Part shown: positions 777 through 32,710 of the stretch, piece by piece | Numbering within the stretch: position 1 is the stretch's first letter | How the letters are laid out: every line of letters starts with the position of its first letter | Assembly (NCBI GenBank): GCA_016841765.1 | Contig: JAENYN010000002.1 | Coordinates: 62,001 to 126,000 of the forward strand | Length of the DNA: 64,000 nucleotides | DNA from: Guptibacillus hwajinpoensis | GTDB lineage: Bacteria; Bacillota; Bacilli; Bacillales; Bacillaceae_O | Direction of reading: 5' to 3' | Notes under the pieces: model-generated | The model's database searches: none | Told to the model about the DNA's origin: nothing | Seen by the model: only the letters and a program-made list of their open reading frames with translations | Made by a program: the position numbers and the translations under genes

Positions 777-906
777 TGTTGTAGAAGTGTTCTGGCACAT
801 TTAAAAAGGCTGGCATTATTTATTTGTTGTACCAAAAATGGTCAGGTCTCTTTGTTATTCTATAAATAGAGAGTTTTTGGAAGAGAAACAGAAAGGGGAA
901 AACCAT

Positions 907-1878
907 ATGGCACTTTACAAACTGTCTGAAAGCCAACACTTATCGGAAGGAATCATGGAGAAAGTAAGCGCAGGAAATGTCAATTACGAAAAAGACTTTG
1001 AAAACTGGCTTGAAAACAGTCCGGATGCACTTTTGGATGAATATGAGGGAAATACGATTTTCTGGATCGGGCGGCAGACGAGGGCGGCAATCGGTGATTA
1101 CGGTAAATACCCTGATTTAATGGGGATTGATTCTGAAGGGAATCTTGTTATTGTTGAATTAAAGAAGGGCAGCACCCCTCGCGATGTGGTGGCACAGGCA
1201 CTTGAGTATTCGACGTGGGCTTCCGCTTTATCGGAAACAGAGCTGAATGAAATCTTCCTTTTATACCAGAATGGCAAAGGCCAGAGGAATGCAATTGAAC
1301 TTCGGGACAAGTTTAACGAAGTGTTCTATCCTGATACCCAGGAAAAGGCCGATGTTCAATTTAACCGGAAACAGCGCATTTTCATTATTGCTGAGACTGT
1401 CTCGCCGATTGTCAGAGAAGTAACGGATCATCTCCGGGACCAATATGGGATGGAGGTTTTCTGCATGGAATACACCGTTTATAAAAGCGGCCAGGGTGAG
1501 TATATCATCAGCACCGAACAAATTGGCAGTTCCGCTTCAGTGAAATCATCTTCAGGCCGGTGGAACGAGCCGGTAAAGGTAAAAGAACTGGTGTATGATA
1601 CGGTCCGGAAATTGACGATTTATGATGAAGGAGATGAAACGTTCACTCCTGCCGCCGTTTATAGGGAAATCGCCAAGGACTACCCTGATATCAACCCGAC
1701 CACAGTCCGCTGCCAGTTGATTGCGGATTGTGTGAACCATACTTCGAGAAAGCATTATCCATCGGGCCAGAAGGATTTATACTATCTTGTATCGAAGGGA
1801 AATTATCGGAAATATGATCGCCAGAGGGACGGCGAGTGGAATTGGAAGGGGGAGCCAATAAACGTAACTTCCTCCTAA
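907..1878 (+). CDS. PD-(D/E)XK nuclease protein, DUF91/NucS-like, with C-terminal winged-helix-like part
   Basis: Predicted DNA nuclease of 323 residues. The ATG at 907 is chosen because GAAAGGGG lies just before it; the ORF track start at 838 has no ribosome binding site. Seen: a PD (residues about 69-70) followed by a hydrophobic strand and ELKKG (E84, K86), the classic PD-(D/E)XK active-site layout, as in the DUF91/NucS nuclease fold. The last 100 residues (TVRKLTIYDEG... to the aromatic tail) resemble a small helical DNA-binding appendage found behind such nucleases. It lies 85 bases upstream of mcrB on the same strand, with no clear terminator between, so it may serve as an extra nuclease of the McrBC locus (inference). 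The role in defence is unproven. Confidence 0.7.
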   Translation: MALYKLSESQHLSEGIMEKVSAGNVNYEKDFENWLENSPDALLDEYEGNTIFWIGRQTRAAIGDYGKYPDLMGIDSEGNLVIVELKKGSTPRDVVAQALEYSTWASALSETELNEIFLLYQNGKGQRNAIELRDKFNEVFYPDTQEKADVQFNRKQRIFIIAETVSPIVREVTDHLRDQYGMEVFCMEYTVYKSGQGEYIISTEQIGSSASVKSSSGRWNEPVKVKELVYDTVRKLTIYDEGDETFTPAAVYREIAKDYPDINPTTVRCQLIADCVNHTSRKHYPSGQKDLYYLVSKGNYRKYDRQRDGEWNWKGEPINVTSS

Positions 1879-1962
1879 ACTACCAGTCTTAGTTATGCTT
1901 CCCAATGCAAGATAGCATGCATTGGGAAGTTTCAAAAATACTGGAAAACCGAGGTGAATCAA

Positions 1963-4812
1963 TTGGATAAACAAGCTATTGAAAAGCAGCTTTACCTGGA
2001 CCATTACCTGGATACAGCCTTCAGTGAATACATAAAGTTTAAAGGGACCGATACATATTATGAACAATACAAGTGGGAAATTTTATCGGAACTGAATGAG
2101 TACTTCAAAAATATAGAAGTTAATGAAATGACCATTCATGAGATTATAGATAAATTAAAAAGAAGCAACCCGCAATCAGGAAGTTTTACACACTGGGGTT
2201 CTCTTGCGGATTTAGAGGAATTCGCAAGTGATCAGCCAAACGAAGCAGCAAACCTTCTTCAAAATTTATATAATGAATCATTGCCGCTTACAGACCGAAT
2301 CGAGAGCTTTGTTAATGCCGGCAAACAATATAAAAAAGACCTAAAACTCGGTGCACCATTATTCGGCTATCTGTTGGCAGCCTATGATTATAAACGGTAT
2401 CCAATATATAAAGAAGGGGTTTTTCAGTCTGTAAAAAAGACATTTGGAATCGATAAAAAGCTGGGTTATGTCGCTGAAAACTATAATTTTTATATGGAAT
2501 TTTGTTCTGTGCTTTTTGAGTATTTAACAAAGCAAATGGATCACCCATCCATGCTTGATGTCCAGGATTTTTTATACTCCATTACAGAATATAAGAATCT
2601 TAAAGTGGAGATAGCCGTTTCATATATTTATCGGTATTCAATGAAACTAAAGAGTTTTTCTGAGGAAGAGCAGATGTTCCTTAATGCAATTGATAAGCTG
2701 GATCCTAAATATCTGCAGGAAAGGCTTGCTGCATACAGCAAAGGGGATAAAGTCAATCAAATACGGTATAAAGTCATACAAGAAGCCCTGTCCGGAAACG
2801 GCCTTACTTCAGAAAAATTAGAGAAGTTTAAGCAAGAAGTAAGCAGTAAGCATGAAAAAAATATATTACATTCGTGGTCAAACTTTTCTATTTTGTTTCA
2901 AATTTACTATGATTCTTTCAAGCTGAGGGTCATAGATGAGTTGTCCAAGATTCATCAGTACATCCGTGAGATGAATGAGTTCTCACATGTTTCCTTTGAC
3001 AAAGACAAAACAATTAATGGGTTCAACTGGAATCGAAATCTGGGAACGACAGAGTGTTGGATTGCAGTTTTCCCTTCAGGCTATGGGAGTCACAAAGAAG
3101 CAGCACAACTTTTTTTAAGCGTTAATGCAAACTTAATAAGGTATGGGCTGGTATATGGCAGTAACAATGAAAAGAGAGGCCAGGATAACTTGGATGACTT
3201 GCGCAGTATAGAGGAATTCTCTGCAAGTAAGTTAAGGGAGAAATGTATAGAGGTGTTCCCAGAATTCTTGCAAGGAAATAATCTAGAAGTATTTAATAAC
3301 GAGATAGTAAAAGATGAAAATCCAGACTACCAAACTGAGATGGCTCATCCATTTTCAGAGATTTTCCAATCATCGGAAGAGGCTGAATGGGCTTTTGAAT
3401 TTATGAAGAACGCGGCAGATACATTAGGTGTCTATGCACCGGGTGATGCACGTCTTGCTGTTACATTTCGCAAGGAATATTACTCGATTCACTTGAACTA
3501 TTGTTCCTGGCTATTATTGGGGTTCTATAACAGTGAAGATAACGATTTGCTAGTACGGATGCCGTTATTTGAAGAAAGGATAAAAGATGCATATGAAGTG
3601 GAATACAGTTTCAGACAGTCTGAAAATGAAGATAAAATTAACTGTTATCTTGTTCCAATCAGTGATCTAAAACCAATGAAACAAGATATAAAAGATAATT
3701 TCAATTCAGCTCTCAAGCAAATTAAAGATCGGTTTGCCGGTCAAACGAAGTCTCAGTACAGAATTTATAATATCCCTGAGATAGAACAGGCAGTATTTGA
3801 AGAGAGAAAAAGAAATGACTTATTTACAAATGGGATTAAAGAAATTACACCAGAATCAGTACCAATTACAATCGATCCAGTAGATTTTTCAAGGGAGCTG
3901 GATTCAGGAAGCTTACACTTCCAGGATAGAGACCTTATCCTAAAACAAGTGAAAACAGCTTTAGCCAGCGGCAAAAACATTATTTTTACGGGACCGCCGG
4001 GAACAGGAAAGTCAAAACTGGCCAAGGAAATATGCAATAGCTATGCTGTCCCATTCACCATGACCACCGCAACCTCTGACTGGTCCACCTACGAAACAAT
4101 CGGAGGATACCGTCCGGACCGGGATGGTACGTTGTCGTTTACTCCAGGGCTGTTTTTAAAATGCTTCAAGGACACATCTACAAACCTCCCAAAAAATGAA
4201 TGGCTGATTATTGATGAAATGAATCGGGCAGATATCGACAAGGCGTTTGGATCGCTGTTTTCGGCTCTTACAGGTGATCCTATTACTCTGGCATTTTCGT
4301 CTGAAAGCGGAAAACAGATCATAGTACGGCCGCAGGATGAACATGAACTGGAAGCCAATGATTATGAGTATGTTATCCCGGAAGATTGGCGGCTCATCGG
4401 CACCATGAACACACTGGATAAGGCCTCATTATATGAAATGAGCTATGCTTTCATGAGGCGTTTTGCATTTATTCCGATCGGCATTCCGAAGAAGATTGAT
4501 GAGGCTCTTGTCCATACGTATCTTACCCACTGGAACCTGAATGATTACGCCTATACTGCAACGCTGGCAGAAGTATGGAAGCTGATTAATACAAAGCGGC
4601 AAATCGGTCCTGCCATTGTCGAAGATATCGCAAAGTTCACTGTAGGGGACGGAGATTTTACATCAGCACTTATCATGTATGTTATGCCACAGTTTGAAGG
4701 ATTGATGGATCATCATATTCTTGAATTTGTGGAAAGAGCGGGACAGCTGGAGGAAGTAAATGAAAATTCACTTAAAGAGTTTGCCGCAGACTTCTTTCAA
4801 ATCGGGGAATAA
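1963..4812 (+). CDS. mcrB: McrB-like AAA+ GTPase of a modified-cytosine restriction system
   Basis: Motor subunit of a McrBC-type restriction complex, which in the family translocates DNA using GTP after the N-terminal part recognises methylated sites. TTG at 1963 is preferred: GAGGTG lies six bases upstream, whereas the GTG at 1954 of the track is part of that ribosome binding site. Seen in the C-terminal AAA+ domain: Walker A GPPGTGKSK (about residue 676), Walker B EWLIIDEMNRAD (about 748) and the McrB signature GTMNTLDKASL (about 813, MNTxD). The first 630 residues include a segment resembling MrcB-N/DUF3578 (CWIAVFPSGYG) and are not E. coli McrB-like, so the recognised modification cannot be predicted. 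Three bases separate it from mcrC. Confidence 0.88.
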   Translation: MDKQAIEKQLYLDHYLDTAFSEYIKFKGTDTYYEQYKWEILSELNEYFKNIEVNEMTIHEIIDKLKRSNPQSGSFTHWGSLADLEEFASDQPNEAANLLQNLYNESLPLTDRIESFVNAGKQYKKDLKLGAPLFGYLLAAYDYKRYPIYKEGVFQSVKKTFGIDKKLGYVAENYNFYMEFCSVLFEYLTKQMDHPSMLDVQDFLYSITEYKNLKVEIAVSYIYRYSMKLKSFSEEEQMFLNAIDKLDPKYLQERLAAYSKGDKVNQIRYKVIQEALSGNGLTSEKLEKFKQEVSSKHEKNILHSWSNFSILFQIYYDSFKLRVIDELSKIHQYIREMNEFSHVSFDKDKTINGFNWNRNLGTTECWIAVFPSGYGSHKEAAQLFLSVNANLIRYGLVYGSNNEKRGQDNLDDLRSIEEFSASKLREKCIEVFPEFLQGNNLEVFNNEIVKDENPDYQTEMAHPFSEIFQSSEEAEWAFEFMKNAADTLGVYAPGDARLAVTFRKEYYSIHLNYCSWLLLGFYNSEDNDLLVRMPLFEERIKDAYEVEYSFRQSENEDKINCYLVPISDLKPMKQDIKDNFNSALKQIKDRFAGQTKSQYRIYNIPEIEQAVFEERKRNDLFTNGIKEITPESVPITIDPVDFSRELDSGSLHFQDRDLILKQVKTALASGKNIIFTGPPGTGKSKLAKEICNSYAVPFTMTTATSDWSTYETIGGYRPDRDGTLSFTPGLFLKCFKDTSTNLPKNEWLIIDEMNRADIDKAFGSLFSALTGDPITLAFSSESGKQIIVRPQDEHELEANDYEYVIPEDWRLIGTMNTLDKASLYEMSYAFMRRFAFIPIGIPKKIDEALVHTYLTHWNLNDYAYTATLAEVWKLINTKRQIGPAIVEDIAKFTVGDGDFTSALIMYVMPQFEGLMDHHILEFVERAGQLEEVNENSLKEFAADFFQIGE

Positions 4813-4815
4813 ATC

Positions 4816-6138
4816 ATGAGCCAAAAAAGTGAACGGATCATAGAGGAAATCAGCGACCTGCTGGCCGTTTATCTTAAGGCCGGAAAGGTTGGATTGAATT
4901 CCTTTATTAAAAAAGCCCATTTGAATATTTCACAGCTGGAGCAGCTTTTGAACATTCACTTTCTTTTAAAAAAAGATGTACAAAAGTTTGTAAATGATTT
5001 ACCATCTCTCATCAGAAGGTTCAAGACATCGACAATGGTGGTGCATGAAACATATATCGGGGAAGTACGCGGACAAATCAACTGGCCGAACACCTTGAAA
5101 GAACGGTACAGGATGAATCCTGAAGATAAAACGATCTTCTCGTGCAATGAACGGAACCGAAACTATGATATTCCTGAAAATCTAGTTTTAAAGGAACTGC
5201 TGTATACAATCTATAACGTCCTGTTTGTGAAAATTGACAGCGAGCGCCTTGAACGTTACGAGTACTTTAAGGAATGGAAAACATTGAAACCGCTGCTGGA
5301 GGAACTGCTGCGGAAAAATGTTTATCTTTCCAGGATCAAAACAGACACTAGAGTCACAGACAGGATGATTCAAAAAACATTAAGGCACCGTAATCCGCTG
5401 TACCAGGAAGCGGCCAGACTGCTCAGAGATTACCGGCAGCTGATGAAAGAAAAGCTTAACGAGAAACTCATCCGTGATCTGCTGACCGAAACGTTTATTT
5501 TCCCGGAAAAAGAAGAAGTGCTCTTTGAATTATACTGGGTCATGCAGCTGATTAAACAGAATACAACCAATGCAGAACTGCAGTTGATTGACGGGAAAAA
5601 CAACCTTGTTGCCAGCTGGGAAAATGATGATTTTATTTATGATATCTATCATGATTCCCAGGGATCACGGGAACTAGCTTTTAATATCAGTACAGAAGAG
5701 GTCAGTGCTTATTCACATCCCTATATAGATAGAAAACTCGCTTCGATAAATCGGGCTGAGAATGCGGCAAAGCAATATTTTGGTTCCGCATTTGATTCTT
5801 CAACGTTTTGGAGCGGGAGGCCTGATATTCTTATAGAGGTTTATCGGAAAGATATAGGTAAGCTTGCCAGGGTGATAATCGGGGAAGTTAAAGATACAGA
5901 GCGGAAGGAATATGCAATTACAGGCCTAAGGGAACTTGTGGATTATATGACGTTTGTTAAAGGGCGGAACGGCAGTTATCTTAATGCTAATCCTGATATG
6001 GAAGTAGAAGGCTTTTTATTTGTCGGGGAAATGGGCCTCCAGTCAGCTGATATCAATCAGATAAAAGTGTTTTCTTTAAAAGGGTACAATCAGGAAGAGC
6101 TATTGTTAAACGATGTTGAAGAAAACTCTTCGTTGTAA
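4816..6138 (+). CDS. mcrC: McrC-like nuclease subunit
   Basis: Endonuclease partner of McrB: in the family McrC binds the McrB hexamer, stimulates GTP hydrolysis and cuts DNA. Seen: 440 residues with a helical McrC-type middle (LLEELLRKNVYLSRIKTD) and a C-terminal PD-(D/E)XK core, GRPDILIEVY (about residue 335) and IIGEVKDTE (about 355), giving D and E-x-K. ATG at 4816 follows the mcrB stop by three bases, so the two are translationally linked. A good intrinsic terminator follows at 6161, closing the operon. Confidence 0.85.
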   Translation: MSQKSERIIEEISDLLAVYLKAGKVGLNSFIKKAHLNISQLEQLLNIHFLLKKDVQKFVNDLPSLIRRFKTSTMVVHETYIGEVRGQINWPNTLKERYRMNPEDKTIFSCNERNRNYDIPENLVLKELLYTIYNVLFVKIDSERLERYEYFKEWKTLKPLLEELLRKNVYLSRIKTDTRVTDRMIQKTLRHRNPLYQEAARLLRDYRQLMKEKLNEKLIRDLLTETFIFPEKEEVLFELYWVMQLIKQNTTNAELQLIDGKNNLVASWENDDFIYDIYHDSQGSRELAFNISTEEVSAYSHPYIDRKLASINRAENAAKQYFGSAFDSSTFWSGRPDILIEVYRKDIGKLARVIIGEVKDTERKEYAITGLRELVDYMTFVKGRNGSYLNANPDMEVEGFLFVGEMGLQSADINQIKVFSLKGYNQEELLLNDVEENSSL

Positions 6139-6160
6139 TTTGAATGTTTTAATGCTTTTT

Positions 6161-6194
6161 CAGGTGTACCGTAAATGGTGCGCCTGTTTTGTTA
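6161..6194 (+). terminator. Intrinsic terminator after mcrC
   Basis: CAGGTGTACC pairs over ten positions with GGTGCGCCTG (three G-U pairs), loop GTAAAT, then TTTT. It lies 22 bases after the mcrC stop. Confidence 0.7.
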
Positions 6195-6281
6195 TTATTG
6201 TTATATAGGATAACTTGACTCTGATGGTAAAATGAGGATAAATACATAGATTAAGAAATCAGGATTTCGGGAGGATTACAT

Positions 6282-6608
6282 ATGCCAGTATATAACAAGC
6301 TTGTCCGTGACTTCATTCCTCAGATTATAGAAAAAACAGGAAAAAATTATTCAACCAGAACTTTATCTGATAAAGAATACATAACTTCACTCCGCCGGAA
6401 GCTTACAGAAGAAGTGGAGGAATACTTCGAAACGACCAACAATGAAAACGCTGTCGAAGAACTTGCCGATGTTCTTGAATTGATCCATGCTCTGGCAAAA
6501 ACCCATGGGTCATCAATAGAACAAGTGGAAGAAGCCCGAAAACAAAAGGCCGAAAAAAGAGGCGGCTTCAACGACAAAATTTTCTTGATCGAGGTAGAAG
6601 ATGAGTAA
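6282..6608 (+). CDS. MazG-like nucleoside triphosphate pyrophosphohydrolase
   Basis: Small all-alpha NTP pyrophosphohydrolase (108 residues) of the MazG/HisE-like superfamily; members hydrolyse (d)NTPs to the monophosphate. Seen: the metal-binding acidic pattern EEVEEYFE and, after a gap of about 20 residues, EELADVLEL, matching EExxE...ExxD. The N-terminus MPVYNKLVRDFIPQII is typical of the phosphoribosyl-ATP pyrophosphohydrolase-like subfamily. A ribosome binding site (GGGAGGA) precedes the ATG. The 3' end overlaps the next gene by eight bases, so it is almost surely cotranslated with the PLD-helicase; a joint role in nucleotide or nucleic-acid defence is inference. There is no link to histidine synthesis here. 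Confidence 0.8.
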   Translation: MPVYNKLVRDFIPQIIEKTGKNYSTRTLSDKEYITSLRRKLTEEVEEYFETTNNENAVEELADVLELIHALAKTHGSSIEQVEEARKQKAEKRGGFNDKIFLIEVEDE

Positions 6609-9048
6609 AATCAAACTGGTTACTGAAAACATACAGAACCAGATCATAAAAGGAATCACTGAATCTGCCACCATTTATATCCTGACCTCGTTTGTAATGA
6701 AATCAGGGGTCCAGCTGCTTAAACCCGATTTACTGGATGCGGCAAAACGGGGTGCGGATATAAAAATATGCACCGGTGACTACTTATTTGTTTCGCAGCC
6801 CGAGGCGCTGAAAGAACTATTGTTACCGGATTATGAGAATATTGAAGTGCGTTTGTGGAGGAGCAATGGGATTTCTTTTCATCCAAAGGCATACTTGTTT
6901 AAAAATGAAAAGGAAGGCACCTTTATTGTAGGCTCCTCCAATCTTTCACGTTCAGCCCTTACTACGGGGGTTGAATGGAATTTAGTCATGGAAAAGGATG
7001 CGGAACCGGATACATATGAAGATGCTGTAGACAGGTTTTTGAAGGTTTTTTATGATGACCTTACGATTCCCGTAAATGAAGAAACGGTAAAAGCATATGA
7101 AAAGCAATATGATCAGTATCATCAAAAACACCCGCACCTTGCCAGGTCCTGGGCGAAACAAGAAGAAATCGAAATGATGATTCCTGCTGAAGAAGAAAAC
7201 AGGCGCAGTGGACAAGTTATAGATCCGCCTGAAACATACGATATAAGGATTGAACCACGGCCTGCACAAAAAGAGGCACTGGAAGCGTTATATTCAACTA
7301 TAGAAGAAGATTACAACCGGGCGATGGTCGTGATGGCAACAGGCCTCGGAAAAACTTATCTGGCTGCGTTCTGGGCGAAGAAGTTTAAGCGTGTCCTCTT
7401 CATTGCCCACAGGGAAGAAATCCTGCACCAGGCACATAAATCATTTAACAGGGTCATACCGGATCGGACATACGGGATCTATAACGGAAGAATAAAAGAA
7501 GGAAGCGCCGATACAATTTTCGCTTCCATATATACATTGAGCATGAAAGAGCATCTAGCACACTTTCCGCCTGGTCATTTTGACTTGATCATTGTAGATG
7601 AATTTCACCATGCAGCTGCCAAGTCGTATGAACGAGTTCTTAATCATTTCAAGCCACAGTTCCTTCTGGGAATTACAGCAACTCCCGACCGAATGGATGG
7701 AAAAGATGTTTATGCCATCTGCGACGGCAACGTCGCTTTCCAAATGCATTTCATTAAGGCAATCCAACACGGCTGGCTGGCGCCGTTCCATTACTATGGG
7801 GTTTACGATGATACCGATTATTCGCAGATTACCTGGCTCGGCACAAAATACGACCAGGCAGAACTTCTGGCAGCCCAGCTGAGGGATGAAACAGCGGAGA
7901 ATATAATTCAGGCGTGGGAAAAGCATAAGCAAACAAGAACGATTGGATTCTGTTCTTCAATTAAACAAGCCCAATTCCTGTCTGATTATTTTAATAGTAA
8001 AGGATATCACACAATCAGCCTTCATTCACAGACTGTCGATATTGGCAGGAGTGAGGCCATTCAGAAGCTGGAAAAGGGCGAAATTGATGTCATCTTTACC
8101 GTCGATCTATTTAATGAAGGTGTCGATATTCCTCCTGTGGATACCCTGCTCTTTGTCAGGCCGACTGAATCTCTGACTGTCTTTACGCAACAGGTAGGGC
8201 GCGGCCTCCGTTTGCATGACGGCAAGCAGCATTGCACCATCATCGATTTAATCGGAAACTATCGAAATGCGGATATTAAACTGAGTCTATTTGATACAGA
8301 AAGAGCAGATAGCAAACAGAAAAAGAAAAAGGCCACAGAGCCAGTCGTACCTGAGCAATGCAAAGTTGATCTTGATGTTAACGTTATTAATCTGTTAGAC
8401 GAACTGGCTAAAAAGAAACAGCCAAGGAAGGAAAAACTCCGAGATGCTTATTTTGCTTTAAAAGAGGAATTGGGAAGGCGTCCAACATATCTCGAAATGC
8501 ATTTGCAAGGAAATGTAAACACCAGAGAATACAAGCAAGAATTTAAGTCTTTTGCTGGGTTCCTATACTGGGCAAATGAGTTGAGTGAGCATGAGAGTGA
8601 AGTGTACAGGCGTTACCGGGAGTGGCTTGAAGAAGTTGAGCGGACCGGTATGGCCAAGAGTTATAAGATGGTTTTGTTGAAATATATGCTGAGCAGGGGA
8701 GAGCAGGATTGGTATAAGCCGGTTACTCCGGAGGAGGTTGCTCCGTTTTTTCATAGTTATTTTATGGAGAAGGAATACAGGAAAAAGGCTGATTTCTCGG
8801 ATAAGAAGACGAAGAAGATGTGGGATTATGATCGGGATGCTGTAGCGAAGCTGGTGGCTGAGATGCCAATGAGTAAGTGGAGTGGGAGTTCCAGATCAAT
8901 AGTTTCTTTTAATGATTATATTTTTGAATTGAATTTAGAGATAAAAAAATCCGAGAACCACAAATTGTCTTCTTTTACAAATGAGATCTGTGAATATCGA
9001 CTTAAGAAATATTTTGAGAGAAAAACTGATGAATCAAATAGTATCTAA
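6601..9048 (+). CDS. PLD-nuclease/superfamily 2 helicase fusion protein
   Basis: Predicted DNA helicase-nuclease of 815 residues. Seen in order: an N-terminal phospholipase-D-like domain (FHPKAYLF, about residues 94-101, H-x-K, then GSSNLSRSAL); a superfamily 2 helicase core with MATGLGKT (Walker A, about 246), DEFHH (motif II, about 333), ITATPDRMDG (motif III) and QQVGRGLRLH (motif VI, about 530); and about 250 C-terminal residues of unknown fold. Only one HxK motif is visible, so an active PLD site would need dimerisation, as in BfiI-type enzymes. The start ATG lies inside the preceding MazG-like gene (eight-base overlap). Island position suggests phage or plasmid defence; the substrate is not known. 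Confidence 0.8.
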   Translation: MSKIKLVTENIQNQIIKGITESATIYILTSFVMKSGVQLLKPDLLDAAKRGADIKICTGDYLFVSQPEALKELLLPDYENIEVRLWRSNGISFHPKAYLFKNEKEGTFIVGSSNLSRSALTTGVEWNLVMEKDAEPDTYEDAVDRFLKVFYDDLTIPVNEETVKAYEKQYDQYHQKHPHLARSWAKQEEIEMMIPAEEENRRSGQVIDPPETYDIRIEPRPAQKEALEALYSTIEEDYNRAMVVMATGLGKTYLAAFWAKKFKRVLFIAHREEILHQAHKSFNRVIPDRTYGIYNGRIKEGSADTIFASIYTLSMKEHLAHFPPGHFDLIIVDEFHHAAAKSYERVLNHFKPQFLLGITATPDRMDGKDVYAICDGNVAFQMHFIKAIQHGWLAPFHYYGVYDDTDYSQITWLGTKYDQAELLAAQLRDETAENIIQAWEKHKQTRTIGFCSSIKQAQFLSDYFNSKGYHTISLHSQTVDIGRSEAIQKLEKGEIDVIFTVDLFNEGVDIPPVDTLLFVRPTESLTVFTQQVGRGLRLHDGKQHCTIIDLIGNYRNADIKLSLFDTERADSKQKKKKATEPVVPEQCKVDLDVNVINLLDELAKKKQPRKEKLRDAYFALKEELGRRPTYLEMHLQGNVNTREYKQEFKSFAGFLYWANELSEHESEVYRRYREWLEEVERTGMAKSYKMVLLKYMLSRGEQDWYKPVTPEEVAPFFHSYFMEKEYRKKADFSDKKTKKMWDYDRDAVAKLVAEMPMSKWSGSSRSIVSFNDYIFELNLEIKKSENHKLSSFTNEICEYRLKKYFERKTDESNSI

Positions 9049-9136
9049 AATCGATTTTATAAAAATTAAAGAATAAATAGGATTGTAATTTAACTTGGTA
9101 TGGTGTAAGTTTTCGATATGTATTATAATTTAATGA

Positions 9137-9148
9137 GAACGAATGTTC
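9137..9148. promoter_or_regulatory. LexA (SOS) box match upstream of the C5 methyltransferase
   Basis: GAACGAATGTTC fits the Gram-positive LexA/DinR core GAAC-RNRY-GTTC at every defined position. It lies 40-50 bases before the ATG at 9188, just after a TATAAT (9124-9129) and before TATACT (9157-9162), so bound LexA would block either candidate promoter. DNA-damage control of the locus is inferred from this site only. Confidence 0.6.
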
Positions 9149-9151
9149 TTG

Positions 9152-9163
9152 TAGTATATACTA
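9152..9163. promoter_or_regulatory. Perfect 12-base palindrome, possible operator
   Basis: TAGTATATACTA is a perfect inverted repeat four bases downstream of the SOS-box match. It overlaps a TATACT -10-like hexamer and lies 24 bases before the methyltransferase start. It could be an operator for a second regulator or merely AT-rich promoter sequence. Confidence 0.3.
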
Positions 9164-9187
9164 AGTTAAAACAGGAGTTGAAAATCC

Positions 9188-10969
9188 ATGGATAGTTCAA
9201 AGCCCAAAATTAAATTAATAGATTTATTTTCTGGAGCTGGAGGTCTTAGCAACGGCTTTGAACAAACTGGAAGATATGAGGTAGTCGGAGCTGTGGAAAT
9301 TAATGATTCAGCAGCTGAAACATATATTTATAATCATAAACAGGATAGAGATATAATCATTAAGGCTGAAAACGGAAAAAGTGACATAACAAAGATAAAA
9401 TTTGATACCGTACTTAAAGACAGAATCTCACCCAAGGATAAAGTGGTAGTTATTGGAGGGCCTCCTTGTCAAGGTTTCTCAAATGCAAATAGACAAAAAA
9501 ACTACTTAATTTCTGGGAATAATCTCCTGGTTATTGAGTTTGTCAGAGCTATAAAAGAAATTAATCCTGTAGCTTTTCTTATGGAAAATGTTAAAACAAT
9601 GGGTTCTGAAAAACATAAGTTTTTTGTCACAGAACACGTAGAAAATCAGAAGTTTGAATTTACTTCAGAAAAATTTTTAAAAGAAATTAAAGACAAGCAA
9701 GGGCTTAAAAAAGATTTATGGAAGCCAGACGAACTTGAGTTATTGCAAACTAGGCATCAAAACTTAGATCCAATTATTAAAGAAATTTGTAAAGAGGAAA
9801 ATAGCAATAAAAACATTGATCCTATAGTAATAAATCCACTGTTGTTATCGAGGTTACGCAGCATTGAAAGAATCTATCGAAAACTAGATAAATTAATTTT
9901 AAAGACATCAAAAGAACAAAAAGAAATAAACCTTTTAATACAAAGCATCTCAGAGTATAAAAATAATAAATCTTATAGTGTATTTGATGCGGTTATAAAT
10001 AACGCTTTAGGCTCACTTGAGGAACTAAAAGAACATAAAGAGATTTCAAGCAGTGAAATAAAAGAAACCGTAGGGTCACTAATTGATCTTAATAGTTTTT
10101 TACTTCGAATAAAAGAATTAAAAGATGAAAAAATAATTTGGTCGAAACCTTTAGATTATGACAAAGAAAGTTTAACAGTTAAAGCGCATGTAAAGTCTTA
10201 TAACTTAGTGAAGTACTTAAAAAGTGTCTTTAAACACATGGGCTACAAAGTAGATCACAAAGTATTAACAGCTTCTGATTTTGGAGTTCCACAAAATCGT
10301 AATCGTTTCATGATCTTTGGAGTTAAAGGAAAAACAGAAGAGGATATTAAGGTCGAACTTCCAAAAGCCTTGATAAAAGATAAATTTACCACTAGAGATG
10401 CTATTTATGACTTAGAAGAAATTGAACCTCAGCAGGATATTAAAAATTATGTGCCGGTATCTTATAAGGTAATGAAGGAAGAAAAGAAGGAAAAAAATAC
10501 TCTTCGGCTTTATTATCAAAAGGATAATGAAGAAAGAAAAATTTATGATCATATAAATACTGCCAGCAGGGATTTAAGCAGAAAAAGATTTGAAGCTATA
10601 AAAGACGGCGAAGGAAAAAACTTTCACAGCCTCTCAGACGAATTGAAAAGTACGTATACTGATGTTACCCGTACACAAAATACTATTTATCTTCGTCTGA
10701 ACTATGAAGAACCTTCCCCTACTGTTGTAAATGTTAGAAAGTCTATGTGGAACCATCCTAAAAATGCAGTTGCCTTAAGTATAAGGGAAGCCGCAAGACT
10801 TCAGTCATTTAAAGATGATTTTAAGTTTTGTGGGACAAAAGATCAGCGCTATCAACAAATAGGAAATGCAGTACCGCCTCTAATGGCAAGAGCAGTTGCT
10901 GAGACAATACTAAAGCTACTAGGTGATGAGCCAGAAATACCTTTGGTAAAAGAACTTGGATTTAAATAA
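9188..10969 (+). CDS. DNA (cytosine-5) methyltransferase with long internal insertion
   Basis: Transfers methyl from SAM to C5 of cytosine in DNA. Seen: motif I LIDLFSGAGGLSNGF (residues about 10-24), motif IV GGPPCQGFS with the catalytic Cys (about 89-97), motif VI MENVK, motif VIII QNRNRFMIFGV (about 372), and motif X QRYQQIGNAVPPLMARA (about 556). About 220 lysine-rich, probably helical residues sit between motifs VI and VIII, making it 593 residues against about 400 for ordinary enzymes. ATG at 9188 follows AGGAG. Iyer, Abhiman and Aravind described C5 methylases beside MORC/MutL-like ATPases and Z1 helicases, and the same set is called Mza. It has its own terminator and an SOS-box match upstream, so it may be expressed separately from the effector genes. 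It could also serve the DISARM-like block 12 kb downstream. Confidence 0.9.
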   Translation: MDSSKPKIKLIDLFSGAGGLSNGFEQTGRYEVVGAVEINDSAAETYIYNHKQDRDIIIKAENGKSDITKIKFDTVLKDRISPKDKVVVIGGPPCQGFSNANRQKNYLISGNNLLVIEFVRAIKEINPVAFLMENVKTMGSEKHKFFVTEHVENQKFEFTSEKFLKEIKDKQGLKKDLWKPDELELLQTRHQNLDPIIKEICKEENSNKNIDPIVINPLLLSRLRSIERIYRKLDKLILKTSKEQKEINLLIQSISEYKNNKSYSVFDAVINNALGSLEELKEHKEISSSEIKETVGSLIDLNSFLLRIKELKDEKIIWSKPLDYDKESLTVKAHVKSYNLVKYLKSVFKHMGYKVDHKVLTASDFGVPQNRNRFMIFGVKGKTEEDIKVELPKALIKDKFTTRDAIYDLEEIEPQQDIKNYVPVSYKVMKEEKKEKNTLRLYYQKDNEERKIYDHINTASRDLSRKRFEAIKDGEGKNFHSLSDELKSTYTDVTRTQNTIYLRLNYEEPSPTVVNVRKSMWNHPKNAVALSIREAARLQSFKDDFKFCGTKDQRYQQIGNAVPPLMARAVAETILKLLGDEPEIPLVKELGFK

Positions 10970-10985
10970 ATTTATTTTGTTTATG

Positions 10986-11013
10986 AGCAGATGTCTAAGG
11001 CATTTGCTTTTTT
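10986..11013 (+). terminator. Intrinsic terminator after the methyltransferase
   Basis: AGCAGATG pairs with CATTTGCT (one G-U) and is followed by six T. It separates the methyltransferase from the GHKL-Z1 operon. Confidence 0.6.
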
Positions 11014-11062: not shown

Positions 11063-11071
11063 TGTTATAAT
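11063..11071 (+). promoter_or_regulatory. Extended -10 promoter for the GHKL-Z1-DUF4420-AIPR operon
   Basis: TGTTATAAT, a perfect TATAAT with the TGn extension, lies 32 bases before the GTG start at 11103. No good -35 hexamer is seen 17 bases upstream, which is tolerated by extended -10 promoters. Confidence 0.45.
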
Positions 11072-11102: not shown

Positions 11103-12587
11103 GTGAGTACAATAATAACACAGCCTTCTGCAGCTCCAGTAATTCAAGCGTTAAGATCATTAGGTTATAACGCCAAAACAGCCATTGCAGATCTAGTTGA
11201 TAATAGCCTTGATGCGAAAGCTTCCGAAGTACACCTTTCTTTTACTTACGGCGAAGAAGACGGGATTATTAAAATCTTGGATAACGGGATAGGGATGAAC
11301 GAGGAAATGATTCAGCTAGCTATGAATATAGGCTCAAAAGATCCTCGCGACGTAAGAAATCCAAAAGAATTGGGACGCTTCGGCATGGGGTTAAAGACAG
11401 CTTCTTTTTCACTAGGTAAAAGATTAAGTGTTCTAACGAAACAAGATGGAGTATATCATGAGCGATGCTGGGATTTAGATCATGTATCTGAATGCAATGA
11501 ATGGCAGCTTTTTACCAGTATTCCTAATGATGTAAGAATTAAGATGGGGGAAATTGAAGGTCGGAGCGGTACTATTGTTTGTATTGATAAATTAGATAGA
11601 TTTATGGGCTATGGGACTAACAAGACTATTCAAGAAAGCAGTTTCTATACCAAAGTTAGAAGAGTCCATAATCACTTAGAATTTGTTTTTCATTCAATTC
11701 TTGAAAATAAAGAAGTTCAAATATTTATTAATGATAACTTTATAACCCCTTGGGATCCATTTTTAAGTAAACATCCATCCACTCTAGAGGGCGAATTGCA
11801 AGTAATTAGAATAAACGGCAATAAAATTAAAGTGAAATACTATATACTTCCTCATGCCTCTCACTTAAATAGTCAGGAATATAAAGAAGCAGGAGGAAGC
11901 AAAGGATGGCGTGATCAGCAGGGGTTTTATATATACAGAGAAAATAGGTTGCTTTATTTTGGGGATTGGCTGGGGATGTTTCAAAAAGATGCATCGTCGC
12001 AGTTGGTCCGAATACGTGTTGATATACCGAATTTATCAGATTCATCTTGGCAGGTTGATATAAAAAAATCTGCAGTATATCCTCCGGATGATGCCAAGGT
12101 CCGTCTAGAATCAATTTCTAAACTTGCACGGCAAATCTCCAAGGATATTTTTTACTTTAGAACCCAAGGTTCCTCAAATAATAATTCTTTTAAAGGAAGT
12201 TTAAATACGTGGGAGCAATCTGGTATCGATAATGGTCCCCAATTCATATTAAACAGGAATCATCCTATTCTGTCAGAAATTTTCAATTCAATAGATGATA
12301 AGACTGCTAAAATGTTAAATTTATACTTAAAATTTGTTCAATTAGGATCTCCCAGCAACATTATAGATACTCCAAAGGTAGAGGAAGAGAAATTACAAGA
12401 GGTATCTGATTCAAATAAATTGCTCGTAATTCAGTTTACTAAAACAATACTGGAGCTTCAAGTGGTTGAAAGTGAAGAACAGCTGTTGAATGCGTTAGTC
12501 ACCCAGCCCGCATTTGATGGTATTAACAGAACTACTTTGAAGCATATTATTGATAAGGAGAATTTATGGTATGACGACAGAGGCTAA
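11103..12587 (+). CDS. MORC/MutL-like GHKL ATPase of a Mza-type defence system
   Basis: ATPase of the gyrase/Hsp90/histidine kinase/MutL fold, 494 residues. Seen: N-box IADLVDNSLDAKASEV (about 28-43), G1 ILDNGIGMNEEM (about 57-68) and G2 LGRFGMGLKTASFSLGKRL (about 96-114), all with intact ATP-binding residues. Such proteins are the prokaryotic relatives of eukaryotic MORC ATPases and occur in predicted restriction systems with Z1 helicases. A GTG start is used (GGGG about eight bases upstream); an ATG two bases earlier would read straight into TGA. The 3' end overlaps the Z1 gene by 17 bases. It probably acts as an ATP-driven clamp on DNA that loads the helicase or nuclease (inference). Confidence 0.85.
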   Translation: MSTIITQPSAAPVIQALRSLGYNAKTAIADLVDNSLDAKASEVHLSFTYGEEDGIIKILDNGIGMNEEMIQLAMNIGSKDPRDVRNPKELGRFGMGLKTASFSLGKRLSVLTKQDGVYHERCWDLDHVSECNEWQLFTSIPNDVRIKMGEIEGRSGTIVCIDKLDRFMGYGTNKTIQESSFYTKVRRVHNHLEFVFHSILENKEVQIFINDNFITPWDPFLSKHPSTLEGELQVIRINGNKIKVKYYILPHASHLNSQEYKEAGGSKGWRDQQGFYIYRENRLLYFGDWLGMFQKDASSQLVRIRVDIPNLSDSSWQVDIKKSAVYPPDDAKVRLESISKLARQISKDIFYFRTQGSSNNNSFKGSLNTWEQSGIDNGPQFILNRNHPILSEIFNSIDDKTAKMLNLYLKFVQLGSPSNIIDTPKVEEEKLQEVSDSNKLLVIQFTKTILELQVVESEEQLLNALVTQPAFDGINRTTLKHIIDKENLWYDDRG

Positions 12588-15219
12588 AACGTTGTTCGAA
12601 CAGACTTTTCGAACAAACTACTATAATTTTAGAGATACTAGCGCAAGTCAGGAAGATGCTGCTAAACTTGCTTTGCAAATGGCAAAAATGACAATACAAA
12701 ACAAGGAAATTAATGAGGAACAGTTAGAAGAGTGGTCACTTGAAATGTTTATAAATTATAATGTTGGCTTGGATGTGAAAAAAACTCCTGTCATGAGAGA
12801 AAGTTCAAAAAATGATTGGTATAAAGCCAAGAATATGACTGGAGCTTTTTATTGGTCCAGGTATCGTGAGTACCTAACTCGAATTAAAAATTGGCCGACT
12901 GAAGTAGTTGAATCAATTGATAATTCAACTAATGAAATTATGTATTCATTAGGAAACCCAAACAGTAGAGAGCCTTTTGATATAAGAGGGTTGGTTTTGG
13001 GATACGTACAATCCGGTAAAACAGCAAACTTTACTGGTCTTATAAATAAAGCTTACGATGTCGGTTATAAACTTGTAATAGTCCTTTCAGGTATTCATAA
13101 TGATCTTCGAGCACAAACCCAAATGAGACTTAATGAAGAGGTAGTTGGGAATAAGGTTGATAATAATGGAAATCCTGTAGGGGTAGCACAAATAACAAAG
13201 AATACCTCACAGCACGTTATTCAAACATGGACTACGGTGGATCGTGATATTACTTCTGATCCAAGTGGTGTTATTAATTTAAACAACCCTACATTAATGG
13301 TGGTAAAGAAAAATAAAACTGTATTAGAGTCATTGAGAGACCAGCTTGTAGATCATAGAGATGTATTCCACCTTGATATACCTGTATTAGTTATTGATGA
13401 TGAAGCAGATCAGGCTTCTGTGGATACTTCTGATCCTCGTAAGGGTGAGGATCCTAAAACAATAAATAGATTGATACGCCAAATCTTAGAAGTTTTTACA
13501 CGAAAATGTTATGTGGGTTACACAGCCACACCATTTGCAAATTTATTAATAAGTGCAAATGGAAGTACATTAGAGGAAGGAAAAGATCTTTATCCTAAAG
13601 ATTTCCTCGTTGGGCTGCCAAAACCAAAGGAATACTGCGGCCCGGAAGAATTTTTTAATGTGGAAGAAGAAGCTGATGATCCAAGACCGAGCTTAATCCG
13701 TCCTTTAGGGGATTCTGATATAGAAGTGTTTACGGGTATTAAGAAAAAAGAAGATGCTGAAAAATTTGAAGAAGTCCCACCTCAAATGGAAGAATCCATA
13801 ATGGCATTTCTTTTGACAATTGCAATTAGAAATCTCCGCGGTCAAGGAAATAAGCATAATTCTATGCTTATTCATACTTCCCGTTTTAAAGATGTACAAT
13901 CAAGTGTTAAGGATGGAGTTGAAAAAGCTTTTGACTTGATTGATAAACAAATTCAATATAATCCAAATGGAGATAAAGTTTCAGTTTTAAAAAACCTTTA
14001 TGAGCATGATTTTCTGGAAACTACCAAAGCGTGGCCAAAAGATATCAATGAATACAGCTGGGAAGAAGTTTATGAAGAGTTAAAACAGTCATCAAAAAAA
14101 GTTCAAGTCTTTGAAATTAATGGAAATAGCAAAGATGCCCTGGATTATCATCAGTATAAAGAAAATGGATTAAATGTTATCGCAGTAGGAGGAGATAAAT
14201 TATCACGGGGGTTAACTCTTGAAGGATTGAGTATAACTTACTATTTTAGGAATACGCTGATGTATGACACTTTAATGCAAATGGGACGCTGGTTCGGTTA
14301 TAGAAAAGGATATATGGATCTATGCAGAATTTATACAACTGATGAAATTGCTTCTAATTTTGAACATTTAGCAATTGCGATGATAGATTTGAGGAAAGAA
14401 TTCGAAAAAATAGCTGCGTCCGAAAAGGCTCCTATTGAATACGCAGTAAGAATGTTGAGTCATCCAACCATGACACTAACAAATCCATTAAAAATGAGAA
14501 ATGCAACTGTTTCAAATATTTTATATGGAGGAACTCTTCAGCAAACACGTGTCTATGATAAAAAGAAGTCAACTTTTGAGAATAATATGGAGGCAGCTGA
14601 CAAATTCATTAAGGAAATCTCAGATGAAATTGCCGTGAAAAGATTTGGTACTGGAAGAACACAATACCATATGGCAAGTAATGTTGATTCTCAAAAAGTA
14701 ATTAATTTCTTATCCGAATATCAAACAAGCAGTAGTGCATCTAAAGTAGATGTTAATAAAATATCTGACTATATACGACTTGCAAACGACAATAATGAAT
14801 TGATGGATTGGACAGTTGCTGTAGTAGAAGGAGATCCAAGAGATAGAAGTGATAAGGGGGCATTTCCAGTAGAACTTGGAGGCCTTCATCTCCATTCGGC
14901 AGTAGTGCGTGGAGTAAATGTTACACCCACCACACATAACAGTATTGATATACGTGCTATAGTTGCAGCAGGCCAAGAATTTATTGATATTGAGGAGTCC
15001 AAAAGAAAAGGGAAAAGGAATAAACAAGAGATTCGGAAGTTAAGACCTAAGCAAAACGGAATGCTCTTAATTTATCCGCTTCATCCTAAAGTGGATATAT
15101 TCAAAAACTGTGACACTTCTTTTAGAAAAGATCTAGTTCCTATTGGAATTGCCCTTTCTTTCCCTGAATCAGAAATTGATGAGAAGGAAATTTACGAAAC
15201 TAATAAAACAGTAGGATGA
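12571..15219 (+). CDS. Z1-domain superfamily helicase of the Mza-type system
   Basis: Large P-loop ATPase of 882 residues. The ATG at 12571 (AAGGAG ten bases upstream) is preferred to the track start at 12550. Seen: Walker A GYVQSGKTANFTG (about residue 146), Walker B VLVIDDEADQASVDT, motif III VGYTATPFANLL, and the Z1 block GGDKLSRGLTLEGLSITYY with MQMGRWFGYRKGY, which supplies the arginine fingers. The Z1 family is known from MutL-linked restriction systems and is thought to remodel or translocate DNA. It overlaps the GHKL gene at its start and the DUF4420 gene at its end by four bases (ATGA), so the four effector genes are tightly coupled. Confidence 0.88.
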   Translation: MTTEAKTLFEQTFRTNYYNFRDTSASQEDAAKLALQMAKMTIQNKEINEEQLEEWSLEMFINYNVGLDVKKTPVMRESSKNDWYKAKNMTGAFYWSRYREYLTRIKNWPTEVVESIDNSTNEIMYSLGNPNSREPFDIRGLVLGYVQSGKTANFTGLINKAYDVGYKLVIVLSGIHNDLRAQTQMRLNEEVVGNKVDNNGNPVGVAQITKNTSQHVIQTWTTVDRDITSDPSGVINLNNPTLMVVKKNKTVLESLRDQLVDHRDVFHLDIPVLVIDDEADQASVDTSDPRKGEDPKTINRLIRQILEVFTRKCYVGYTATPFANLLISANGSTLEEGKDLYPKDFLVGLPKPKEYCGPEEFFNVEEEADDPRPSLIRPLGDSDIEVFTGIKKKEDAEKFEEVPPQMEESIMAFLLTIAIRNLRGQGNKHNSMLIHTSRFKDVQSSVKDGVEKAFDLIDKQIQYNPNGDKVSVLKNLYEHDFLETTKAWPKDINEYSWEEVYEELKQSSKKVQVFEINGNSKDALDYHQYKENGLNVIAVGGDKLSRGLTLEGLSITYYFRNTLMYDTLMQMGRWFGYRKGYMDLCRIYTTDEIASNFEHLAIAMIDLRKEFEKIAASEKAPIEYAVRMLSHPTMTLTNPLKMRNATVSNILYGGTLQQTRVYDKKKSTFENNMEAADKFIKEISDEIAVKRFGTGRTQYHMASNVDSQKVINFLSEYQTSSSASKVDVNKISDYIRLANDNNELMDWTVAVVEGDPRDRSDKGAFPVELGGLHLHSAVVRGVNVTPTTHNSIDIRAIVAAGQEFIDIEESKRKGKRNKQEIRKLRPKQNGMLLIYPLHPKVDIFKNCDTSFRKDLVPIGIALSFPESEIDEKEIYETNKTVG

Positions 15220-16247
15220 TAAATATGAATAAGGTTATAAATATTAAGGCGGAATTCGAGGAAATGACAAACCAATTAAAAAGCGATTCTGATGGCAGTG
15301 TATATAAGCTTAAAGTGTTAACTGCTAAAGAACCCATTATTTTGGCCGGGATCGATGCAGTAAACCTGAATAGACTGCTTTATATTGACTTAGGACCAGT
15401 TCAATGGGAAGACAGCCATTTAAAAGGACTGCCAAAATGGCGGGGCCTGTCTATTTCTATAGAATATTATGAACAGCTCATTATTTTAAAGGATCGTTAT
15501 TTTTTAATTATAAAGCAAGAGGATGAGCAGAGCACAGAAATATTCGAAGTTGTTTTGCAAAACTTAGTGGATCACCTTTTAATTAAGGAAGAAGATGAGA
15601 CGCTGTTTTCTATTGTTTTTAAAGTCTTAGACAGATGGAGGAATTTTTTCCAAAAGGGCGGTTACCGCCGATTAACGGACGATCAGCAGATGGGACTTTT
15701 TGGAGAGTTATGGTTTATAAATAACTGGATGGAAACAAACCCTGGAGTTCCTCCTCTTATCATTGAACAATGGGAGGGGCCTACCAGCGGGAGAATTGAT
15801 TTTAAAAACTCTAAATGTGGAGTTGAAATTAAAACAGCAGTTGATAAGTTAACTAAAACGATAAAAATATCTAGTGAGCGCCAGTTAAAGTTAACCAACG
15901 CTGTTTCAAAATTATATTTATATGTTTGTTTTATAGAGATTAGTAAAACTCATGGGCAATCATTGCAAAATATTGTCGAGGAAGTTAGGCAGAAGATAGC
16001 AGCAAAATCTGATAGGTTGGCTCTTTTGTTTAATGATATGCTGACAGAACTGGGATATAAAGAAAATGTATATGAAGATACATACTTTTTTGTAGATAAC
16101 GTTGAAGTTTATGAAGCATCAAGTGACTTCCCAAAGATCTCACAAGAGCAGTTGCCGGTGGGCATTTCTCATGTGAGTTACAGCATAGATTTGTCACACT
16201 GTTCAGAGTTTAAAAGAAAACTCGATGAAGTATTTAAGGTCTATTAA
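15216..16247 (+). CDS. DUF4420 PD-(D/E)XK family protein, probable Mza nuclease
   Basis: Predicted nuclease subunit of 343 residues. Seen: GRIDFKNSKCGVEIKTAV, which gives the D...E-x-K set of the PD-(D/E)XK fold (about residues 193-208), preceded by the helix DDQQMGLFGELWFI typical of DUF4420. The ATG at 15216 overlaps the Z1 stop (ATGA); a second ATG at 15225 is possible. In Mza-type loci this protein sits between Z1 and AIPR, as here, and is the likeliest DNA-cutting component (inference). Fourteen bases separate it from the AIPR gene. Confidence 0.8.
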   Translation: MINMNKVINIKAEFEEMTNQLKSDSDGSVYKLKVLTAKEPIILAGIDAVNLNRLLYIDLGPVQWEDSHLKGLPKWRGLSISIEYYEQLIILKDRYFLIIKQEDEQSTEIFEVVLQNLVDHLLIKEEDETLFSIVFKVLDRWRNFFQKGGYRRLTDDQQMGLFGELWFINNWMETNPGVPPLIIEQWEGPTSGRIDFKNSKCGVEIKTAVDKLTKTIKISSERQLKLTNAVSKLYLYVCFIEISKTHGQSLQNIVEEVRQKIAAKSDRLALLFNDMLTELGYKENVYEDTYFFVDNVEVYEASSDFPKISQEQLPVGISHVSYSIDLSHCSEFKRKLDEVFKVY

Positions 16248-16261
16248 TGGAGAGGGTATAA

Positions 16262-18103
16262 ATGATAGAAAGCAGGCAAAGAAGTGAATTTCTTCAGGAG
16301 TTTCTTGAAGATGTAGATGAAAAGGCGATTAAAACAGGCAGTTATGAGATACCGTTTCTAGAAATAATGCTTCAATATATGGAAAGATCAGACGATCCAG
16401 ATATATTGATTCCCTCTTATTTAGATTCGGCTAAGAAAATTAAAGTCAATGCCTATGGATATGATGAAGACCAAAAAGTTCTTGATCTTTACGTTGTTGA
16501 TTATAATTTTGACCAAGACGAAAATGAACTTCTTCCTATTTCAATGACTTCTGTTATAGATATCGCTAGTAAAGCAAAGAGGTTTTATACTAATTCTAGA
16601 AGCCTGGTACAGACAATTGATAAATCCTTACCATCCCGTGATCTTGCTGAATTAATTATCTCAGATGAAAATGTAATAGATGAGGTTAACATATTTGTTT
16701 TGACTAATCTGTATTATCATTCTAATAAAGCTATTGATTTTAACATACCAGGAGTTGAAACTGTAAATGTACAAGTTTGGGATATAGATAGGATTCAGCA
16801 GCTGGTTACATCCGAGCAAGGAATTCAGTCTATTTACATTGATTTTGAAAGGGAACTTGGCGAATCATTTGAGATGATGTTTGTGCCCGATCCTAAACAA
16901 AGCGGGGTAAAGGATAATTTTGATTGCTTTATCGGGTTTATTTCTGCAGAATTTTTAGCTAGAGCATATGATCAGTGGGGGCCGAAGCTTGTAGAAAGAA
17001 ACGTTAGATCTTTCTTGCAGGCCCGAGGAGGAACAAATAAAGGCATCAGAGATACACTAAAAGATCCAAATCAGAGACAAATGTTTGTTGCTTATAATAA
17101 CGGCATTTCAAGCGTTGCCCGTTCTGGAGAAATTGAAAAGATCAGCAACAACGTTAATTTATATCGGATAAAAGGATTGACTGGATGGCAGATCGTGAAC
17201 GGAGGACAAACTACTGCATCTATTCACCAGGCATATAAAAATGGAATAGATTTAAGCGATGTTTATATTCAAGCCAAGTTAACAATCCTGCAAGTTGAAG
17301 CGGATCAGGAAAAGGATAGACACTTGCTGGAAGATGAAATGGTCGCAAAGATTTCAGAATATGCCAATACCCAGAATAAAATTAATAAATCAGACTTACT
17401 TTCTAATACCAGGTTTATGTCTGAAATTGAAAAATACTCAAGAGATGTTTGGATCCCAGCTAAAGATGGGCGAAAGGCCGAAAGTAAGTGGTATTTTGAG
17501 CGTGCAAGAGGTCAATACATGGTTGATATCAACCGACGGAAACGCGGTAAAGAACAAAATGAATTTAAAAAGCAATATCCTAAAGATAAAGTACTTACTA
17601 AAGTTGATTTAGCTAAATATTTTATGTCATGGGAAGGTTATCCTCATATTTCCAGTAAAGGGGGAGAAATGGCATTTAAACGGTTTATGGAAGCTAATAG
17701 ACAATACTGGAAACATGAAAGAGATAATAACAATGACTTAATTCCTTTAGAGGAAATGAATTCTGATGCTTATAAGAAATTAATTGCCAACAGCATCATA
17801 AACCTTCATGTAAAAGCTATTGTTGAGGAATTGAAACTTAGAGGTTATCGAGCAAATGTTGTTTATTACACTGTTTCAATGCTTAGTTATTTATATGGAA
17901 AAGATATTGATCTGTTGAAAGTATGGGAGCAGCAATCACTCTCTGAAAAATGGGATGAAGTGATTCGTATTATTGCAGACAAAACGTTATTCTATTTAAG
18001 AGAGTCTGCCGGGGACAGGAATGTAACACAATGGGCAAAACAAGAGGCATGCTGGATTCAATATAAAGAAGATAATGCAAAGCAACTTAGTAATTTAATA
18101 TAA
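16262..18103 (+). CDS. AIPR family protein (abortive infection phage resistance)
   Basis: Member of the AIPR family, named from phage-resistance loci, 613 residues. Seen: the family hallmark LTGWQIVNGGQTTASIH with the following helix and DLLSNTRF, and an N-terminal half of mixed alpha/beta. A GGAGAGG ribosome binding site lies seven bases before the ATG. It is last in the four-gene operon and is followed by a strong terminator. AIPR proteins are found with Z1 and DUF4420 proteins and are suspected nucleic-acid effectors, but no biochemical activity can be read from this sequence. The internal ORF at 17295 is a shadow. Confidence 0.85.
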   Translation: MIESRQRSEFLQEFLEDVDEKAIKTGSYEIPFLEIMLQYMERSDDPDILIPSYLDSAKKIKVNAYGYDEDQKVLDLYVVDYNFDQDENELLPISMTSVIDIASKAKRFYTNSRSLVQTIDKSLPSRDLAELIISDENVIDEVNIFVLTNLYYHSNKAIDFNIPGVETVNVQVWDIDRIQQLVTSEQGIQSIYIDFERELGESFEMMFVPDPKQSGVKDNFDCFIGFISAEFLARAYDQWGPKLVERNVRSFLQARGGTNKGIRDTLKDPNQRQMFVAYNNGISSVARSGEIEKISNNVNLYRIKGLTGWQIVNGGQTTASIHQAYKNGIDLSDVYIQAKLTILQVEADQEKDRHLLEDEMVAKISEYANTQNKINKSDLLSNTRFMSEIEKYSRDVWIPAKDGRKAESKWYFERARGQYMVDINRRKRGKEQNEFKKQYPKDKVLTKVDLAKYFMSWEGYPHISSKGGEMAFKRFMEANRQYWKHERDNNNDLIPLEEMNSDAYKKLIANSIINLHVKAIVEELKLRGYRANVVYYTVSMLSYLYGKDIDLLKVWEQQSLSEKWDEVIRIIADKTLFYLRESAGDRNVTQWAKQEACWIQYKEDNAKQLSNLI

Positions 18104-18114
18104 GGTTTTATAGT

Positions 18115-18144
18115 GAGAAAGCACTCTTATGAGTGTTTTTTCTT
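18115..18144 (+). terminator. Intrinsic terminator of the Mza-type operon
   Basis: AAAGCACTC / GAGTGTTTT stem with loop TTAT followed by a T-run, 15 bases after the AIPR stop. Confidence 0.8.
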
Positions 18145-30041: not shown

Positions 30042-30110
30042 TGATATTTGGAGACGTTTTAGGGAATTTAACTATAGAAAGGAGAGCACTGCAGCAAAGG
30101 ACTGATTATA

Positions 30111-32697: not shown

Positions 32698-32710
32698 GGG
32701 GGATGGAATT

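Follow-up and report, generated by a model that had tools for sequence, protein, structure and literature searches.

We describe a predicted LexA box in the promoter of a C5-cytosine DNA methyltransferase gene of Guptibacillus hwajinpoensis, found in a 64,000-nucleotide stretch of contig JAENYN010000002.1 that was analysed as a whole (the window). The gene belongs to a MORC/Z1/DUF4420/AIPR restriction-modification (R-M) system related to MZA. The site is probably a LexA operator over the methyltransferase promoter, through which self-protection would be coupled to the SOS response. This reading is carried by conservation, since the box recurs upstream of orthologous methyltransferases in several genera and families. 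It would place the modification half of a MORC/Z1 defence, not its attack half, under a DNA-damage switch. It also suggests how cells carry a dangerous nuclease through episodes of repair, with self-restriction becoming a testable SOS signal.

The predicted LexA box and the methyltransferase promoter

The methyltransferase gene and its promoter comprise the following features.

9089-9170, no strand assigned: inverted repeat around the promoter, with 13-nucleotide arms (9089-9101 and 9158-9170) that are 92% complementary
9124-9129, + strand: -10-like TATAAT; the box core begins 7 bases downstream
9133-9162, + strand: alternative promoter (ATGAGA, 18 nucleotides, TATACT; 9 of 12 matches), with the LexA box within its spacer
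9136-9149, + strand: predicted LexA box AGAACGAATGTTCT
9152-9163, no strand assigned: second palindrome TAGTATATACTA, which includes the -10-like TATACT
9188-10969, + strand: C5-cytosine DNA methyltransferase, 593 amino acids (PF00145, 203 bits; TIGR00675; PADLOC MTase_II, 604 bits)

As the original prediction held, the core of the box (GAACGAATGTTC, 9137-9148) matches the Bacillus LexA core GAAC-RNRY-GTTC in full and lies inside the promoter region, between TATAAT and the ATG at 9188; 38 bases lead from its 3' end to that start codon. In terms of membership in the LexA (SOS) regulon of Bacilli, the box fits CGAACRNRYGTTYG with outer flanks of A and T instead of C and G, making it of the AGAAC/GTTCT type. 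The order of TATAAT followed by a box within 5-10 bases is also seen in two relatives (L019 and L020). The second palindrome does stand next to the box, as had been noted, but it did not turn up in the upstream regions of orthologues that were read, and it probably holds a -10.

The core is not a common one, since the 4.27-Mb genome has 43 GAACN4GTTC sites against 92 for the reversed control pattern, or about half. The genome encodes one LexA, of 211 amino acids, together with matching boxes at standard SOS genes. Three candidate boxes lie between yneA and lexA (AGAATATATGTTCG, GGAACAGATGTTTC and CGAACTTATGTTTG), and others lie beside recA, pcrA, a Y-family polymerase gene and addB (these SOS gene names were assigned by reading the protein sequences). 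A LexA matrix was made only from eight boxes at SOS genes of this genome, one of which adjoins a gene that was not identified. The window site at 9136 scores 16.5 bits, the highest in the window and 5 bits above the runner-up (11.5 bits), and the other defence genes of the island have no site comparable to it. With the matrix of SOS genes only, most of the methyltransferase boxes rank top of 280 kb.

Conservation upstream of orthologues

The methyltransferase was searched for in about 1,250 genomes, which gave 31 orthologues, from different species, whose upstream region could be read. Further family searches added no orthologues, and searches of plasmids and viral contigs for the methyltransferase gave no matches. 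Conservation of the site, whose lack had been named beforehand as one of the outcomes that would refute the prediction, bears it out: within about 200 bp upstream, GAACN4GTTY is present in 17 of the 31 orthologues (13 with exact GAACN4GTTC), in three or more lineages. Elsewhere in these loci, across 135 kb, the exact form occurs once and GAACN4GTTY 11 times. Among all 4-base palindromes with spacers of 0-12, GAAC-N4-GTTC is the commonest upstream, and the GAAC/GTTC palindrome with a spacer of 3, 5 or 6 does not occur upstream of the orthologues.

Mapped on the tree, the LexA label needs 3 changes (10.5 as the shuffled mean). The window gene (L018) and its nearest box-bearing relatives by the tree, L019 and L020, come from three different families. 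When these three are registered on the box, their flanks are 27-36% identical, which is the background level, and all eight arm bases agree. A second clade has the box in 13 of 13 members, with arms 96%, middle 62% and flanks 60% conserved. The box sits either just after the -10 or between the -35 and the -10, the latter in many of this 13-member clade. The window's own 12-mer is present in reverse in L032, and GTTT variants occur among the orthologue boxes as they do in the genome's own lexA boxes.

The idea that the box is a general property of 5-methylcytosine (m5C) methyltransferases was rejected as a rule, the exact box being upstream of 0 of 24 other family members. As a separate observation, a distinct m5C methyltransferase, from another Metabacillus-genus genome (L101), has CGAACTAATGTTTG just before its ribosome-binding site, and three m5C methyltransferases related to this enzyme have weaker box candidates.

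Several points weigh against LexA control. The -35 hexamers in the window promoter are weak and do not fix the transcription start site. The orthologues are related, with 13 of them forming one clade, so the independent events number about three, not seventeen. Moreover, 14 of the 31 orthologues are without the box, so the system as such can do without LexA control. The LexA assignment rests on sites identified by sequence, and the label 'protective' for the methyltransferase is taken from R-M logic. The site, its likeness to the other LexA boxes of the genome, its recurrence in orthologues and its absence from the effector operon are what we show; LexA binding, induction and a self-protective purpose are what we infer.

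Separation from the effector operon

Downstream of the methyltransferase, the system continues as follows.

10985-11009, + strand: intrinsic terminator at the junction of the methyltransferase and the effector operon
11066-11071, + strand: effector operon -10 TATAAT, with extended -10 TGTTATAAT and without a LexA box
11103-12587, + strand: MzaB-like MORC/MutL-type GHKL ATPase
12550-15219, + strand: MzaC-like Z1 helicase protein
15216-16247, + strand: MzaD-like PD-(D/E)XK protein (DUF4420)
16262-18103, + strand: MzaE-like AIPR protein
18115-18142, + strand: effector operon terminator

The methyltransferase therefore has its own terminator and the effector operon a separate promoter, as claimed originally. 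By a strict scan, 7 of 13 loci with this gene order have equivalent terminator hairpins. The further claim, that LexA would act on the methyltransferase apart from the effectors, is supported by the distribution of the box, which is found upstream of methyltransferase orthologues and upstream of the effector operon in none of 16 loci.

Identity of the system and its known relatives

Pfam matches (PF13589, PF10593, PF14390, PF00145 and PF10592) give the combination of GHKL ATPase, helicase, restriction endonuclease (RE)-fold nuclease and DNA methylase. Homologues of MzaB to MzaE lie in order (PADLOC, 267, 491, 61 and 229 bits). All four miss the NCBIfam equivalog cut-offs for MZA, with 310 of 850, 586 of 1500, 108 of 420 and 321 of 1050 bits, respectively. 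The name MzaA for the methyltransferase was rejected, given that the product of the canonical mzaA is a sigma factor (PMC9523054). No sigma-70-type MzaA was found in the operon, where the gene ahead of MzaB is the m5C methyltransferase; the canonical MZA gene order is seen in Thalassospira.

Two published groups are among the closest. The MORC/MutL-type R-M neighbourhoods (Iyer et al. 2008, PMC2292703) share the GHKL ATPase, helicase, RE-fold nuclease, cytosine methylase, Vsr and AIPR, though that paper covers gene content and does not mention LexA or SOS control. The work on MZA (mzaABCDE) also describes Z1/DUF4420/m5C methyltransferase 'type II' systems (Miller et al. 2022, PMC9523054), with MzaB-E homologues in the same order and a cytosine methyltransferase as a core gene, as in the window locus. 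Taken together with the cytosine methyltransferase and the Vsr found nearby in many relatives, the locus fits both the MORC-type and the 'type II' descriptions. Unlike in MZA itself, the window methyltransferase forms a unit of its own, preceded by a LexA box, and the four proteins lie under the equivalog cut-offs.

In alphaproteobacterial MORC/Z1 plasmid systems, an alpha-type LexA-like repeat stands upstream of dcm in only one of six loci. This is a Neorhizobium locus (L124), where GTTCN7GTTC (equivalent to GAACN7GAAC) lies at about 4714, upstream of dcm-vsr; as a link to LexA, it is suggestive only.

In Bacillus subtilis, the methyltransferase genes ydiO-ydiP of the BsuM R-M system belong to the LexA regulon, and the restriction genes form a separate operon. 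BsuM is an ordinary type II R-M system without MORC, Z1 or AIPR, unlike the system in the window. If the BsuM case holds, there is already a precedent for a LexA-run R-M methyltransferase, and the novelty lies in the repeated use of the box in MORC/Z1 systems and its alternation with the GCTGC promoter described below. We found no report of LexA control of the present system in the literature searched.

A proposed mechanism

In an undamaged cell, LexA would hold the methyltransferase at a low level that is still enough to maintain methylation. Once RecA filaments form, LexA would be cleaved and the methyltransferase would rise. The MORC/Z1/nuclease/AIPR operon, set apart by a terminator and read from a promoter of its own, would not be directly changed. 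Unmethylated repair-synthesised DNA, or breaks that the system inflicts with its own nuclease, could trigger SOS and in this way lead to more methylation. Such a circuit would work like damage-induced restriction alleviation, by raising modification rather than by removing the nuclease.

Parts of this scheme have parallels. Unbalanced R-M activities induce SOS (PMC3874152), and in Caulobacter the loss of a solitary cytosine methyltransferase led to an SOS response that depended on a Vsr-like protein (PMC12907096). Damage-induced restriction alleviation is itself established (PMC12707154). The alleviation of type I systems by ultraviolet light or 2-aminopurine is alike in that damage tips the balance toward sparing self, but there ClpXP degrades the restriction complex, whereas here transcription would raise modification (PMC12707154). 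The scheme also suggests that SOS-inducing conditions could lower the restriction of incoming DNA through more methylation.

Alternative explanations

A LexA-bound box could instead serve the timing of mobility or of a prophage. That is, SOS would set off excision and replication, and the extra methylation would mark the DNA of the outgoing element. In its favour, mobile elements often carry R-M systems, and defence genes are densely clustered in the window. Against it, neither an integrase nor a transfer gene was identified next to the system there, and the box is tied to the methyltransferase promoter, recurring there among quite different neighbours. We regard this explanation as unlikely, although it survives best of the four.

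Slightly less probable still is a regulator other than LexA with a GAAC-N4-GTTC site, a reading left room by the fact that the sites are known from their letters alone. The GTTT variants shared with the genome's own lexA boxes, and the ranking of most methyltransferase boxes by the SOS-gene matrix, argue for LexA instead. No common regulator gene was noticed next to the loci, although a systematic search for one was not made.

The original prediction had also allowed that phage entry raises methylation through LexA as a defence response. Phage or plasmid DNA can, in general, trigger SOS. Even so, more methyltransferase during infection would modify the invader as well, and the locus shows no sign of phage sensing, so that this part of the prediction finds no support and looks improbable. 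DNA damage or self-damage is the likelier input to LexA control, because methylating the invader would help it.

A chance match, for which it can be said that the 12-mer pattern is expected 0.8 times per 64 kb (the window has two copies, the other at 3495 inside a coding region) and that the site was picked by eye, is very improbable and was rejected on orthologue conservation, a test independent of that pick (the exact box stands in 13 of the 31 upstream regions and just once in the other 135 kb).

A second promoter type among the orthologues

In 10 of the 31 orthologues, all without an exact LexA box, TATGCTGC lies across the methyltransferase -10 (L021-L025, L030, L034 and L047-L049). A -35 usually stands at 17 bases, which makes GCTGC overlap the -10; in two further orthologues GCTGC lies next to the -10. 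By the patterns applied, TATGCTGC and the LexA box never occur together in one orthologue. Weaker LexA-like matches are given by the SOS-gene matrix in L034, L047, L028 and L026, and TATGCTGC is not present in the window promoter.

Across both promoter types, the target-recognition region shows the same degree of conservation as the remainder of the protein, a hint that their methyltransferases may have one target in common. CfrBI, LlaDII and AhdI are known cases of promoter-methylation control, in which the methyltransferase gene is run by methylation of its own promoter (PMC12707154). These systems offer a model for the TATGCTGC orthologues, unlike the window promoter, which has no such site. 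By this analogy, TATGCTGC is possibly a methylation-sensitive promoter switch.

Because the target-recognition region is conserved across both types and such control is known (PMC12707154), we tentatively propose that one methyltransferase family may use two interchangeable sensors of low self-methylation. One would be the LexA box, which would sense the resulting damage; the other would be GCTGC on the -10, which, as the enzyme's own target, would report methylation directly. We put this proposal at less than even odds.

Neighbouring genes and related loci

In second-clade loci (L083-L091), an MzaB-E-like set about 70% identical to that of the window, for which no accompanying methyltransferase of this family was found, ends just upstream of the LexA-box methyltransferase. 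Some loci (L073 and L076) have a second, diverged MzaB-E-like set downstream of the methyltransferase. In several second-clade loci, vsr and the methyltransferase gene point away from each other on either side of the box.

30111-30530, + strand: Vsr mismatch endonuclease (TIGR00632, 136 bits)

In many relatives vsr adjoins the methyltransferase; in the window it is 19 kb off, behind DrmA/DrmB. Window positions 24634-30530 hold DrmA-like and DrmB-family genes (DISARM components) followed directly by vsr; no methyltransferase was identified next to these genes. The LexA-box methyltransferase also matches DrmMII models, and it might serve both the MORC/Z1 system and the DISARM-like genes. Other defence genes of the island, at 838-9048 and 30883-35698, encode a McrB-like AAA protein with a partner, a PLD-helicase type IV-like enzyme and an apparent type III mod/res pair.
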